From contig JARLUB010000002.1 of assembly GCA_030920305.1 (NCBI GenBank), positions 124,001-188,000 of the forward strand: 64,000 bases of DNA, given 5' to 3'. The position numbers and the translations under genes are program-made. Numbering within the stretch: position 1 is the first letter of the stretch; each line of letters begins with the position of its first letter. A model generated the notes under the pieces. That model had not been told where the DNA came from. It did no database searches and saw nothing but the letters and a program-made list of their open reading frames with translations. Positions 49,922 to 62,911 of the stretch are shown in pieces. Source of the DNA: Eubacteriales bacterium SKADARSKE-1. GTDB taxonomy: Bacteria > Bacillota > Clostridia > Oscillospirales > Acutalibacteraceae.

Positions 49922-49941
49922 TTTTGAGAGGTTTTTTATTT

Positions 49942-52900
49942 GTGGAAAAATTAGTAAGCTTTTTAAATAATTATATTGACCCTAAATTTGTGACGGCTAT
50001 TGATGAAGCAAAATTTAAGGCAATTAATATAAACCCTGAAAAAAGGGATCTGTCAATGAATATTTTTTTCCCTCAACCGATTGAGAGAGAAGTTCTCTTT
50101 GATATAGAAAAAAGCCTTGAGAGTTCTGAATTAAATTTAAACAAAGCCACTATTATTCCTCAATTTCCTAAAGAAACCTTTACAGATAAATATTATAATG
50201 AATTAATAAAGGAAATAAGCCGCAGCAACGCTACTATAACTAGTATGGTACAAGATTCTAGTGCAAAACTTGAAAATGATAATTTGATAGTGTCACTAAA
50301 ACACGGTGGCTGCGACATATTACTCAAAAAAAAGTTTGATAAAGCGCTGCAAGCTTTAATAAGACAGGAATTTAACTTCTCAGTTAACGTTTCATTTGAT
50401 GGAAATTTATCTATAACACAAGAAAACAAGTCATACATAAATAAAGAGATAATTCGAGAAGAAAAGGCTAAACGTGAAGCATTAGTTCAAGAAATGGAGC
50501 ATTATGAAAGCTCAAACAAGTTGCAAAATTCATCTGTTCAAATAAACATTAGAAATAAAGAAAACTTATATCCTTCTATAGTTCCAGCTAGTGCGAAATC
50601 TCTTTTAGGCGGAGTTATAAAAGGAACCCCAACTGCAATAAAAGGGCTCAATTCAGAAAGCGGAATAGTTACAGTTTGGGGAGATGTGTTTTCAGTTGAT
50701 GATAGAATAACAAAAGATGGTTCTAAAAAGATATATAGTATAAATATTACTGATTATACAGGTTCCATAACTTTAAAAATAATAGCAGACAAAGATAGAT
50801 GGCGCACTTTTGACACAATAAATAAAGATGCTACGTTGCTTGTTCGTGGCGAAGTCAGCTATGATAAGTACGATCATGACATAACTTTAAGGCCAAAAAG
50901 CATATCGACTGTAGAAAAGGTAAAAGTGGCTGACACGGCTTTAGAAAAGAGAGTTGAACTTCATTTACATACAAATATGTCAGCTATGGATGGAATAAAT
51001 ACGACAGCTGATTTAATTAATCGGGCATGTAGTTGGGGACACAAAGCCATAGCTATCACTGACCATGGCATAGCACAAGCTTTTCCTGAGGCTATGAACA
51101 CGGTAAATAAGCTTAAAAAAGAGGGCAAAGACATAAAAGTCATTTATGGAGTAGAAGCTTATTTTGTTAATGATGAAAATTATGATGGGGAAGACGCTTT
51201 TAAAAAATTAAAGTCATACCATCAAGTAATTTTAGTAAAAAACAAAATTGGGCTTAAAAATTTATATAAATTAATTTCTAAAGCTCATTTAAATTATTTT
51301 TATAAAAAACCAAGAATTTTAAAAAGTGAGCTTATAAAACATAGAGATGGTTTACTAATAGGAAGTGCTTGCGAAGCAGGTGAACTGTTTCGAGCTATTG
51401 TGCAAAATGAAAGCCATGAAAGGCTTTGCGCCATTGCAAAGTTTTATGATTACCTTGAAATACAACCGCTTGGAAACAACAATTTTATGATACGAGATTT
51501 AATTGTCAATGATGAGGAGGCACTCAAGAATTTTAATCGCACTGTAGTTAAGTTGGGAGAAGAACTCAACATCCCTGTAGTTGCAACGTGTGATGTGCAT
51601 TTTTTAGATCCTAAAGATTCGCAGCTTAGAAAGATTTTAATGGCTGGTCAAGGTTATGCTGATGCTGATTGTCAAGCTCCACTGTTTTTTAGAACTACAG
51701 ATGAAATGTTAGAAGAATTTTCATACCTTGGAAAAGATAAGGCTTTTGAAATAGTTGTAGAAAATACTAATAAAATTTCAGATATGATAGATCTTATAAA
51801 GCCAATTCCAGATGGAGTTTATCCGCCATTTATAGATGGTGCAGAAGAAGAGCTTGTAAAAATAACTTGGGAAAGAACTAAAAAAAAGTATGGAGACCCT
51901 CTACCACAAATAGTAAAAGAAAGACTTGACCGAGAGCTTTCATCGATTACTAAGCACGGATTTTCTGTGCTTTATATGACTGCGCAAAAATTAGTGGCCG
52001 ATTCTGAAGCACATGGGTATTTGGTTGGATCCAGAGGTTCCGTTGGTTCATCATTTGTGGCAACCATGTCCGGAATTTCTGAAGTTAATCCTCTATATCC
52101 ACACTATGTTTGCCCTAAGTGTCAAAACAGCGAATTTATAACAGATGGAGGTTATGGTTCTGGTTTTGATTTACCCGAAAAAGAGTGTCCAAACTGCGGG
52201 ACAATGTATGACAGAGATGGGCACAATATTCCATTTGAAACTTTTCTTGGCTTTGATGGCGACAAGACACCCGATATAGACCTTAATTTTTCCGGTGAAT
52301 ATCAAAGTGACGCGCACAGATATACAGAAGAACTTTTCGGAAAAGATAAAGTCTTTAAAGCGGGAACCATTGCAACAATTGCTGATAAAACAGGTATTGG
52401 TTTTGTAAAAAAATATGCTGAAGAAAAGGGGATAACTCTACACAAAGCTGAAGAAGTAAGACTTGCAAAGGGCTGTACGGGTATAAAAAGAACCACTGGT
52501 CAGCATCCCGGTGGAATGGTTGTTGTGCCAAAAGGTATGGAAATATATGATTTTTGCCCAGTGCAAAGACCGGCAAATGACCAAAAGTCTGACAATATAA
52601 CAACGCACTTTGACTTTCACTCAATACACGATACCATTTGCAAATTAGATGAGTTAGGGCATGATGTCCCGTCAATTTATCGCTATCTAGAAGATTATAC
52701 TGGAATTCCAGTTATGAATGTGCCAATGAGCGATGAAAAGGTTATGTCATTGTTTACTTCCACAAAGGCCTTAGGAGTAACTCCAGAGGCAATAAATTCC
52801 CAAACGGGAACATTTTCCTTACCAGAAGTTGGAACAAGTTTTGTTCGACAAATGATGATAGAAGCAAAACCTAAAACATTTTCTGATTTATTGCAAATTT

Positions 52901-53700
52901 CAGGGCTTTCTCACGGAACCGATGTCTGGCTTGGCAACGCCCGTGATTTAATAAAAGATAATGTCTGTACAATTTCTGAGGTTATTGGAACAAGAGACAG
53001 TATTATGACCTACCTTTTGCAAAAGGGTTTGGATCCTAAGATGTCATTTAAAATAATGGAAATTGTAAGAAAAGGCAAGGCTAAAAAGCTTTTAACTGCG
53101 GAACATATAAATGCAATGAAAGAGCATGGGGTACCAGACTGGTATATAGACTCTTGCATGAAAATAAAATATATGTTTCCAAAGGCGCATGCTACAGCTT
53201 ATATGATCTCAACTTTAAGGCTTGGCTGGTATAAAGTTTATAAGCCACTTGAATATTATGCTGCTTATTTTACAGTTAGAGGAGAAGACTTTGATGGTTC
53301 TATAGCTATTAAGGGCAAAGACGCTGTCAAACAAAAAATGCGGGAAATAGAAGAAAAGGGTAAAGAGGCTACCGCAAAAGATTATGCAGCTTTTTCAACC
53401 TTTCAAATTGTAAACGAAATGATGGAACGTGGAATTGATGTTCTACCAGTTAATATTTATAAATCGAATGCCTATAAGTATGTAGTTGAAGACGGTAAGA
53501 TAAGACTGCCCTTTTCTTCTTTAGCTGGAATAGGTGAAAATGCAGCTAAAGGTTTAGAATCAGAAGGTAAGTTAGGAAAATACATTTCAGTTGATGATCT
53601 TCAAGCGAGAACAGGGGTTACTAAAAGTGTTGTTGAAGCATTAGATGAAATAGGTGCTTTAAAAGAAATACCTAGAAGTAGTCAAATAAGTTTCTTTTAG
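49942..53700 (+). CDS. polC: DNA polymerase III PolC-type, lacking the 3'-5' exonuclease domain
   Basis: About 1252 residues against roughly 1430-1450 in typical PolC. OB domain at about 225-320; PHP domain begins at VELHLHT near 338. After VIYGVEAYFVNDEN near 402 the sequence passes through only about 20 residues to YHQVILVKNKIGLKNLYKL. Typical PolC carries a DnaQ-like exonuclease of about 185 residues there, with DxE and HNASFD motifs; none are present. The PHP ligands look complete (HLHT, DG, TDHG, VEA, YH, SAC, CDVH). Polymerase residues PDIDLNFSG and the zinc motif CPKC/CPNC are intact. GTG start at 49942 after GAGAGG; a TTG at 49924 is possible. Confidence 0.93.
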   Translation: MEKLVSFLNNYIDPKFVTAIDEAKFKAININPEKRDLSMNIFFPQPIEREVLFDIEKSLESSELNLNKATIIPQFPKETFTDKYYNELIKEISRSNATITSMVQDSSAKLENDNLIVSLKHGGCDILLKKKFDKALQALIRQEFNFSVNVSFDGNLSITQENKSYINKEIIREEKAKREALVQEMEHYESSNKLQNSSVQINIRNKENLYPSIVPASAKSLLGGVIKGTPTAIKGLNSESGIVTVWGDVFSVDDRITKDGSKKIYSINITDYTGSITLKIIADKDRWRTFDTINKDATLLVRGEVSYDKYDHDITLRPKSISTVEKVKVADTALEKRVELHLHTNMSAMDGINTTADLINRACSWGHKAIAITDHGIAQAFPEAMNTVNKLKKEGKDIKVIYGVEAYFVNDENYDGEDAFKKLKSYHQVILVKNKIGLKNLYKLISKAHLNYFYKKPRILKSELIKHRDGLLIGSACEAGELFRAIVQNESHERLCAIAKFYDYLEIQPLGNNNFMIRDLIVNDEEALKNFNRTVVKLGEELNIPVVATCDVHFLDPKDSQLRKILMAGQGYADADCQAPLFFRTTDEMLEEFSYLGKDKAFEIVVENTNKISDMIDLIKPIPDGVYPPFIDGAEEELVKITWERTKKKYGDPLPQIVKERLDRELSSITKHGFSVLYMTAQKLVADSEAHGYLVGSRGSVGSSFVATMSGISEVNPLYPHYVCPKCQNSEFITDGGYGSGFDLPEKECPNCGTMYDRDGHNIPFETFLGFDGDKTPDIDLNFSGEYQSDAHRYTEELFGKDKVFKAGTIATIADKTGIGFVKKYAEEKGITLHKAEEVRLAKGCTGIKRTTGQHPGGMVVVPKGMEIYDFCPVQRPANDQKSDNITTHFDFHSIHDTICKLDELGHDVPSIYRYLEDYTGIPVMNVPMSDEKVMSLFTSTKALGVTPEAINSQTGTFSLPEVGTSFVRQMMIEAKPKTFSDLLQISGLSHGTDVWLGNARDLIKDNVCTISEVIGTRDSIMTYLLQKGLDPKMSFKIMEIVRKGKAKKLLTAEHINAMKEHGVPDWYIDSCMKIKYMFPKAHATAYMISTLRLGWYKVYKPLEYYAAYFTVRGEDFDGSIAIKGKDAVKQKMREIEEKGKEATAKDYAAFSTFQIVNEMMERGIDVLPVNIYKSNAYKYVVEDGKIRLPFSSLAGIGENAAKGLESEGKLGKYISVDDLQARTGVTKSVVEALDEIGALKEIPRSSQISFF

Positions 53701-62173: not shown

Positions 62174-62911
62174 TTAATTTTTGTTATGAATCAATGCTGT
62201 TTTTGGTCTAGATTTTAAGTATGATTTAAACCTATCAATGTCAGAGTTAACAACTAAATCTTCAGGAAAATCTATTTCCTTTAATAAAGAAATTGCATTA
62301 TCAAAAATACCAACCTGAGAAGAAAAGTGTGCATCTGAATTAACTACAATGCGAACTCCATGCTTTTTACAAATTTGAGCTATCTTTTTACAGTTTTCAA
62401 TACCACTTTTTCTAATTATAAAAGAATTGTTATTTATTTCAACAAGCTTACCATAACGCCCAAATTCAGGTATAACTTTTTCGTAGTCAAATTTAAAAGC
62501 TTTAACTCCACTATGCCCAATGACATCCACATACGGATTTTTTGCTACATTTAACCAGGCCGCCGTACAAGCATCTATATCACAAATCGGCTCTAAAGTA
62601 ATTTCATGCATTGATGCAATAACCCACTCCAGATAACCAAGACTTGAATCTTCTACATCTAAATTTCCATCATAATCACAAACATTAGCTTCAATTCCTT
62701 TAATTACTCTAACACCATCTATTTTCTTTGGAATTATCCTTAAGTTTTCAAAATACCATTGTCCAGGTGCACCAGGCATTAATCTGCCATGATCAGTAAT
62801 TGCTATAGCATACAAATTTTTTTTTTGTGCTGCCTTTACCATTTCCTCTAGAGAACTATAGGCATGTGTTGAAGCAGTTGTATGGCAATGAGTATCGGCA
62901 ATTATTTTCAT
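62174..62911 (-). CDS. PHP-family phosphatase (YcdX-like)
   Basis: A 245-residue PHP-domain metal hydrolase. DTHCHTTASTHAYS, AITDHGRLMPG, KGIEANV, ASMHE, IGHSG and NSDAHFSS supply the expected His/Asp/Glu ligands. It probably cleaves a phosphomonoester; the substrate is unknown. Lies between murB and hprK, a common position in Clostridia. Confidence 0.9.
   Translation of the reverse strand: MKIIADTHCHTTASTHAYSSLEEMVKAAQKKNLYAIAITDHGRLMPGAPGQWYFENLRIIPKKIDGVRVIKGIEANVCDYDGNLDVEDSSLGYLEWVIASMHEITLEPICDIDACTAAWLNVAKNPYVDVIGHSGVKAFKFDYEKVIPEFGRYGKLVEINNNSFIIRKSGIENCKKIAQICKKHGVRIVVNSDAHFSSQVGIFDNAISLLKEIDFPEDLVVNSDIDRFKSYLKSRPKTALIHNKN

Follow-up and report, generated by a model that had tools for sequence, protein, structure and literature searches.

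A PolC without its inserted exonuclease and with an intact PHP metal site in an Acutalibacteraceae genome: candidate proofreading by the PHP domain

Introduction

The locus described here raises the question of what removes misincorporated nucleotides when PolC lacks the 3'-5' exonuclease that is normally inserted in its PHP domain. The gene lies in a window of 64,000 nucleotides (contig JARLUB010000002.1, positions 124,001 to 188,000, forward strand) from the genome of Eubacteriales bacterium SKADARSKE-1, called G000 below. This genome of 1.38 Mb is 98.3% complete and is a draft in 23 contigs. We compared it with a family of 151 genomes, which we take to be Acutalibacteraceae in the GTDB sense. 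The original prediction, made from the nucleotide sequence of the window, offered three possibilities: the replicase does not proofread, it uses a DnaQ subunit in trans, or it proofreads with its PHP domain.

PolCs without the exonuclease (exo-less) have been known since 2013 in Clostridia and Negativicutes, and their share was 6% of PolCs and 16% of the PolCs paired with DnaE1 (Timinskas et al., PMC3919608). The same paper raised the question of whether DnaE1 is the chief replicase. As of that publication, no PolC plus DnaE1 system had been characterised and the sharing of work in such a replisome was unsettled. The exo-less architecture in Clostridia and the DnaE1 question are thus already published. 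What is new is that no RNase_T/DnaQ domain was found in G000, that the loss is repeated within one family, that a decayed intermediate exists, and that there is a candidate reciprocal loss of polymerases. A literature search reaching few subscription papers found no earlier report of repeated loss of the PolC exonuclease, of a decayed remnant or of DnaQ-free genomes, and the passages of PMC3919608 covered, including its Discussion, describe none of the three. The family is a natural experiment, comprising PolC with an exonuclease (exo+), exo-less PolC, PolC with a degenerate exonuclease, and genomes in which PolC or dnaE1 appears to be missing. Where no DnaQ-type domain is detected and both PHP sites are intact, a single purified protein would suffice to test the PHP domain as the sole replicative proofreader outside the few cases known.

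Results and Discussion

The polC gene and its product

The open reading frame at the locus occupies positions 49924–53700 of the window on the forward strand, begins with TTG and encodes 1258 amino acids. Six codons past the TTG, a GTG at 49942 is preceded by GAGAGG. We chose this start by eye, which places polC at 49942–53700 (+) and reproduces the predicted protein size of about 1252 residues. All residue numbers below refer to the 1258-aa frame from TTG 49924. Upstream of polC lie dxr, the gene of an rseP-type protease and ispG, named by eye from the ORF translations. The C-terminal clamp-binding motif QISFF, also identified by eye, is encoded at 53683–53697 (+).

A Pfam search of the whole protein detected the PolC N-terminal II, PHP (PF02811, residues 345–512), Pol, fingers and HHH domains and did not find an RNase_T domain; an OB-like match was slightly below its cut-off (23.6 bits against 27). 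The NCBIfam models NF001688 (1496 bits, cut-off 873) and TIGR01405 (1371 bits, cut-off 1043) each matched in two stretches, the best of which begins at residue 420 or 423. Alignment to Geobacillus PolC had been proposed as a check. It turned out that residues 245–1258 align with the Geobacillus chain 3f2b in a single stretch, straight across the engineered junction and with no exonuclease insert in the window PolC. In the 3f2b construct the exonuclease was deliberately deleted for crystallisation (PMC3656037, PMC12592400). The domain order is that of the canonical PolC structures from Geobacillus and Enterococcus; unlike them, the window PolC has no DEDDh domain within PHP, and its eighth PHP ligand is D (D557), where both structures have N.

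Between E411 and H433, at the site of the DEDDh exonuclease in canonical PolC, the window protein has a loop of 21 residues (51157–51219, +) that replaces a domain of about 190 residues. The prediction of a PolC without the DnaQ-type exonuclease, with about 20 residues at this place, is thus borne out: the gene encodes a genuine PolC without the inserted DEDDh 3'-5' exonuclease. Like the exo-less clostridial PolCs of PMC3919608, it has no Exo insertion in PHP, occurs in a genome with DnaE1 and keeps a conserved metal site. It is also a natural counterpart of an engineered exo-deleted PolC. Deletion of the exonuclease in a Staphylococcus PolC construct leaves a fast polymerase (PMC3656037); unlike such constructs, the natural protein retains the N-terminal domain and a linker of its own.

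The span from F415 to the residue before H433 is 19 residues in the window PolC, 16–37 in the 41 exo-less PolCs of the family described below, and 207–215 in intact exo+ PolCs. The stubs flanking the loop resemble the flanks of exo+ proteins on both sides, and the length and sequence of the loop vary between exo-less lineages.

Repeated loss of the exonuclease in the family

Twenty of the 151 genomes gave no match to the PolC core and 12 gave only fragments, which were excluded. Of the 119 PolCs taken, 118 were scored, as G111 was dropped for an internal stop. For each genome, these family searches scored only a few first-look candidates (in one search, 5 of 11). We treated two extra PolC-like genes separately: a second gene of G169 (G169b) was aligned but kept outside the state counts, and a gene of G096 (L210), 38% identical, was kept outside the analysis.

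Comparison across related genomes, which had also been suggested with the original prediction, showed the same architecture in 41 of the 118 PolCs; the other 77 carry an insert, degenerate in two cases. On a PolC tree of 123 rows built with the exonuclease columns left out, the state changes 13 times, and at least nine changes are forced by branches with SH-aLRT of at least 95. The PolC exonuclease state mapped on a DnaE1 tree (87 rows) also changes 13 times, at least ten of them forced. The window clade (G000, G069, G139, G064, G116 and G109; 98% support) comprises six genera, all exo-less and each with its own loop. It belongs to a 13-row PolC clade together with six exo+ rows and G154. The loops that differ by lineage and the stubs that resemble exo+ proteins fit separate in-frame deletions. 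We infer that the ancestor had the exonuclease and that the direction was loss and not gain, which the counts of state changes alone cannot tell apart.

Distances between exonuclease domains correlate with distances between PolC bodies (Spearman 0.71 over 2701 non-independent pairs). The nearest neighbour by body was among the five nearest by exonuclease in only 48 of 74 rows, and therefore some exchange of the exonuclease by transfer may have occurred. In a survey of the order (197 genomes), the exo-less type was found, among the matches listed, in 11 genomes of three further families (f2, f19 and f24).

Low GC3 of polC was considered as a correlate of the loss. Overall, GC3 was 0.45 in exo-less and 0.59 in exo+ genes (p=0.002), but within the 13-row clade the ranges overlap (0.20–0.31 exo-less, 0.22–0.38 exo+), and the association was rejected.

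PolCs of genus g17 keep an insert of 183 residues in G016 (L125) and 179 in G169 (L129). Profile comparison relates this insert to intact exonucleases with 99.5% probability. Both genomes have lost three of the DEDDh residues (E, H and the last D), and G169 has lost the first D as well; the D of motif II is retained in both. The remaining 75 inserts have all five residues, except one that is truncated. We read the g17 insert as an exonuclease that is probably dead and being lost. The second PolC-like gene of G169 (L209, G169:C11:170034-174573) is exo-less and fast-evolving, on a long branch, and has lost six of the nine PHP ligands (HRDNENGNS).

The PHP metal site and its possible role in proofreading

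The PHP domain covers about residues 343–565 (50950–51618, +), its end being approximate. The original prediction held that its ligand set looks intact, and alignment columns located all nine ligands: H347 and H349 of the motif HLH (50962–50970), D356 (50989–50991), H381 (51064–51066), E411 (51154–51156), H433 (51220–51222), C483 (51370–51372), and D557 and H559 of the motif DVH (51592–51600), all on the forward strand. A 2026 survey calls a PHP site active by the nine ligands HHDHEH[C/H]DH (PMC12926913), and the window PolC has this full set of a PHP-type proofreading polymerase.

We suggest that the PHP domain of the window PolC proofreads, as does that of DnaE1, and that mismatch repair follows; we put the probability of this reading at slightly above one half (about 0.52). 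The inserted DEDDh exonuclease would have been lost by an in-frame deletion, leaving a short free loop next to the intact PHP active site. The PHP domain, with its nine-ligand metal site, would then excise misincorporated nucleotides from the 3' end; DnaE1, whose PHP site is likewise intact, would do so too, and MutS-dependent repair would act afterwards. That PHP binds metal and acts as an exonuclease, and how PolC shares the work with DnaE1, are presumed here.

Precedents are found among DnaE proteins. The PHP domain of mycobacterial DnaE1 proofreads; its three zincs are bound by nine ligands of this kind, and mutants in the metal ligands lose the exonuclease (PMC5636811). The path of the DNA is lined by a loop beside this site, and it is in the equivalent loop that Geobacillus PolC bears the inserted DEDD exonuclease (PMC5636811). 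Since the exonuclease sat in the loop of the DNA path, its deletion would restore a free loop beside an intact PHP site. The PHP domain of Thermus DnaE is also active as an exonuclease (PMC3666897). Measured between the equivalents of E411 and H433, the loop has 22 residues in Thermus DnaE and 20 in the DnaE1 of G000, close to the 21 of the window PolC; by the borders used in PMC5636811, the lengths are 18 in Thermus and 29 in mycobacteria. The window protein thus shares with mycobacterial DnaE1 nine ligands of the same kind and a free loop at the site; unlike it, the window protein is a PolC, has a shorter loop and is so far a candidate exonuclease. Proofreading by PHP fits this anatomy. In its favour are the loop size near that of Thermus DnaE, the invariant ligands, the recurrent losses, the decayed g17 insert and the conservation of PolC in the window clade.

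Other observations speak against PHP proofreading. The passages of the literature covered report no exonuclease activity for the PHP domain of any PolC. The PHP domain of Geobacillus PolC, the one PolC PHP found described as tested, had none (PMC3666897), although it carries N at one ligand (PMC5636811); in E. coli Pol III with a rebuilt metal site the authors credited no activity to the PHP domain (PMC3666897). The nine ligands are intact in 40 of the 41 exo-less PolCs and, to the same extent, in 76 of 77 exo+ PolCs; the one exception on each side is truncated. Conservation of the ligands therefore does not track loss of the exonuclease, and we rejected it as a signature of the loss. It may instead reflect a structural role or a different reaction. 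A rate ratio, given in the next section, hints at slightly relaxed constraint.

The absence of reported activity for a PolC PHP domain and the equal conservation of the ligands also favour the alternative of a PolC without proofreading, PHP being structural and fidelity resting on base selection and mismatch repair. G000 has a MutS gene (882-aa frame), and PF00488, which also covers MutS2-type proteins, matched in 149 of the 151 family genomes. By a naive test, exo-less genomes, with a median of 1.8 Mb, are smaller than exo+ genomes, with 2.3 Mb (p=0.00015), as would be expected under relaxed selection. This difference lost its support on independent tree pairs (median p=1), and we do not tie exonuclease loss to a small genome. 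Moreover, across the 28 exo-less PolCs placed in one alignment the nine ligands do not vary, while the fast-evolving paralogue of G169 lost most of its set. We consider a PolC without any proofreading unlikely.

DnaE1, PolC and the choice of replicase

G000 also encodes a full DnaE1 of 1154 residues with all nine PHP ligands intact and the clamp motif QIGFF, and for this reason the description of PolC as the main replicase of G000 is an assumption. DnaE1 might instead be the bulk replicase and proofread by its PHP domain, with PolC in a lesser role in which its exonuclease became dispensable. The intact ligands and clamp motif of DnaE1 would suit this arrangement, and so would the existence of relatives that seem to lack PolC.

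We took 88 DnaE1 proteins and placed 87 in the tree; G162, whose gene is interrupted, was left out, and G109 was represented by its longest open piece. All nine PHP ligands are present in 83 of the 87; G116 and G079 deviate, and two proteins are truncated. Nine genera without a PolC match (G008, G013, G066, G067, G079, G083, G099, G103 and G131), seven with a completeness of at least 95%, form one DnaE1 clade with 100% SH-aLRT. Thus, DnaE1 alone probably suffices as a replicase in this clade. In family f10 of the same order, 13 of the 14 sampled genomes gave only weak PolC cross-matches among the matches listed, and this family may be without PolC. Because some genomes of the order appear to be PolC-less, this pattern may matter for the range of bacteria on which PolC inhibitors such as ibezapolstat (PMC11963600) act.

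DnaQ-like proteins occur in the PolC-less genomes G066 (L322) and G103 (L323), the latter matching best to the exonuclease part of PolC, and by eye an ORF of G099 (L324) is similar to them. G112 was labelled PolC-less, but one of its contigs has, at its end, a 589-aa frame matching RNase_T, which suggests a PolC fragment.

Evolutionary rates bear on the same alternative. The median ratio of the PolC core to the comparable DnaE1 core was 0.98–0.99 in exo-less and 0.905 in exo+ genomes (p about 1e-10 to 1e-12, from non-independent pairs). PolC is therefore relatively less constrained in exo-less genomes, as a lesser role would predict; its core is nevertheless as conserved there as that of DnaE1. 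In the window clade it is more so, the distance from G000 to G069 being 0.20 for the PolC core and 0.34 for the comparable DnaE1 core. These ratios and distances indicate continued selection on exo-less PolC, which may be slightly relaxed. Earlier ratios of 0.80 (exo-less) and 0.72 (exo+) compared the PolC core with whole DnaE1, minus G154, G023, G145, G119 and G109. With comparable cores, the idea that PolC is more constrained than DnaE1 across the family was dropped and retained for the window clade only.

A further argument against DnaE1 as the bulk replicase comes from exo+ relatives in which dnaE1 was not found. In G000, G139, G069, G116, G120, G122, G152 and G109, pfkA follows dnaE1. In G005, G033 and G090, which are exo+ members of the 13-row clade, drafts with a handful of candidates scored per genome, dnaE1 was found neither before pfkA nor elsewhere, and the DnaE1 query was answered only by PolC. 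By eye, ackA or ispF lies upstream of pfkA instead (G005:C37, L306; G033:C10, L309; G090:C36, L308). An exo+ PolC is thus the candidate sole Pol III alpha subunit of these three genomes. In G154 dnaE1 is present, cut at a contig end, with pfkA located elsewhere, and therefore the pfkA test alone cannot settle the absence of dnaE1. G064 and G009 also gave no dnaE1 match; pfkA is missing in G064 and represented in G009 only by a 40% paralogue, and both were left out of the count. Every species is said to have a DnaE (PMC12926913). If closed genomes confirm the loss, G005, G033 and G090 would be PolC-only bacteria, against this statement. On balance, DnaE1 as the bulk replicase of G000 appears improbable to us, and we keep to PHP proofreading by both polymerases.

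Two other genes were observed near this subject. The dnaE1 match of G162 (L287, G162:C24:19947-27049) is interrupted by about 3.4 kb, which contains a 621-aa ORF with an HNH-like motif, by eye perhaps a group II intron protein. G120 has an extra DnaE-like gene (G120:C39:78217-80754; 1040-aa frame) with 29% identity to the DnaE1 of G000.

Search for an exonuclease acting in trans

A DnaQ-type exonuclease encoded elsewhere in the genome could proofread for PolC in trans. We searched two Pfam families of the DEDD fold, PF00929 (RNase_T) and PF01612, in G000, about 2% of which is estimated to be missing. PF00929 gave no match in G000, so no stand-alone RNase_T exonuclease was found there, and the same search was positive in 10 of 14 control genomes. 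The five clade mates (G069, G139, G064, G116 and G109) had no match either; in the family as a whole the search was positive in 129 of 151 genomes. G154, which stands apart from the window clade on the PolC tree beside an exo+ row, likewise has no match. A profile built from 18 PolC exonuclease domains of relatives found both exo+ controls and, with E allowed up to 1, nothing in the ten exo-less genomes given.

The only PF01612 match in G000 is Pol I. Its DEDDy site is presumably kept in part: by eye, the first motif DTE is present and the later catalytic residues are not. G000 has four PHP matches and no PolX among them: PolC, DnaE1 and two proteins that are HisJ-like and YcdX-like, respectively. 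The YcdX-like stand-alone PHP protein is encoded in the window at 62174–62911 (−), between murB-like and hprK-like genes named by eye.

Some exo-less relatives outside the window clade do have stand-alone RNase_T proteins. These occur in 26 of 35 exo-less genomes that are at least 90% complete, and exo+ genomes carry them about as often (60 of 68). We thus rejected them as compensation for the loss. With no PF00929 match in G000 or its clade mates and no match to the PolC exonuclease profile, a DnaQ subunit in trans, one of the options first proposed, is highly unlikely.

A broader version of PHP proofreading, which we hold tentatively and at somewhat below even odds, is that the whole replisome of the window clade gave up DEDDh proofreading. 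Excision of the exonuclease from the PHP loop would have reopened the DNA path to a trinuclear PHP site, leaving PolC and DnaE1 to proofread by PHP only; the switch would have taken place some ten times within the family, and one lineage would still carry a dead exonuclease.

An assembly or binning artefact, including a segment lost at this point, is so unlikely as to be negligible: G000 is a draft, but the gap is in frame, the polC ORF is intact, five other genera of the window clade share the architecture with different loops, and it recurs across the family with lineage-specific loops.

Many family genomes have stand-alone RNase_T frames of 280–295 aa among the matches listed; the window clade yielded none. 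At L321 and L326, a DEDDh protein of this size lies beside a typA-like gene (by eye); the one at L321 matches best to KapD, below the cut-off.
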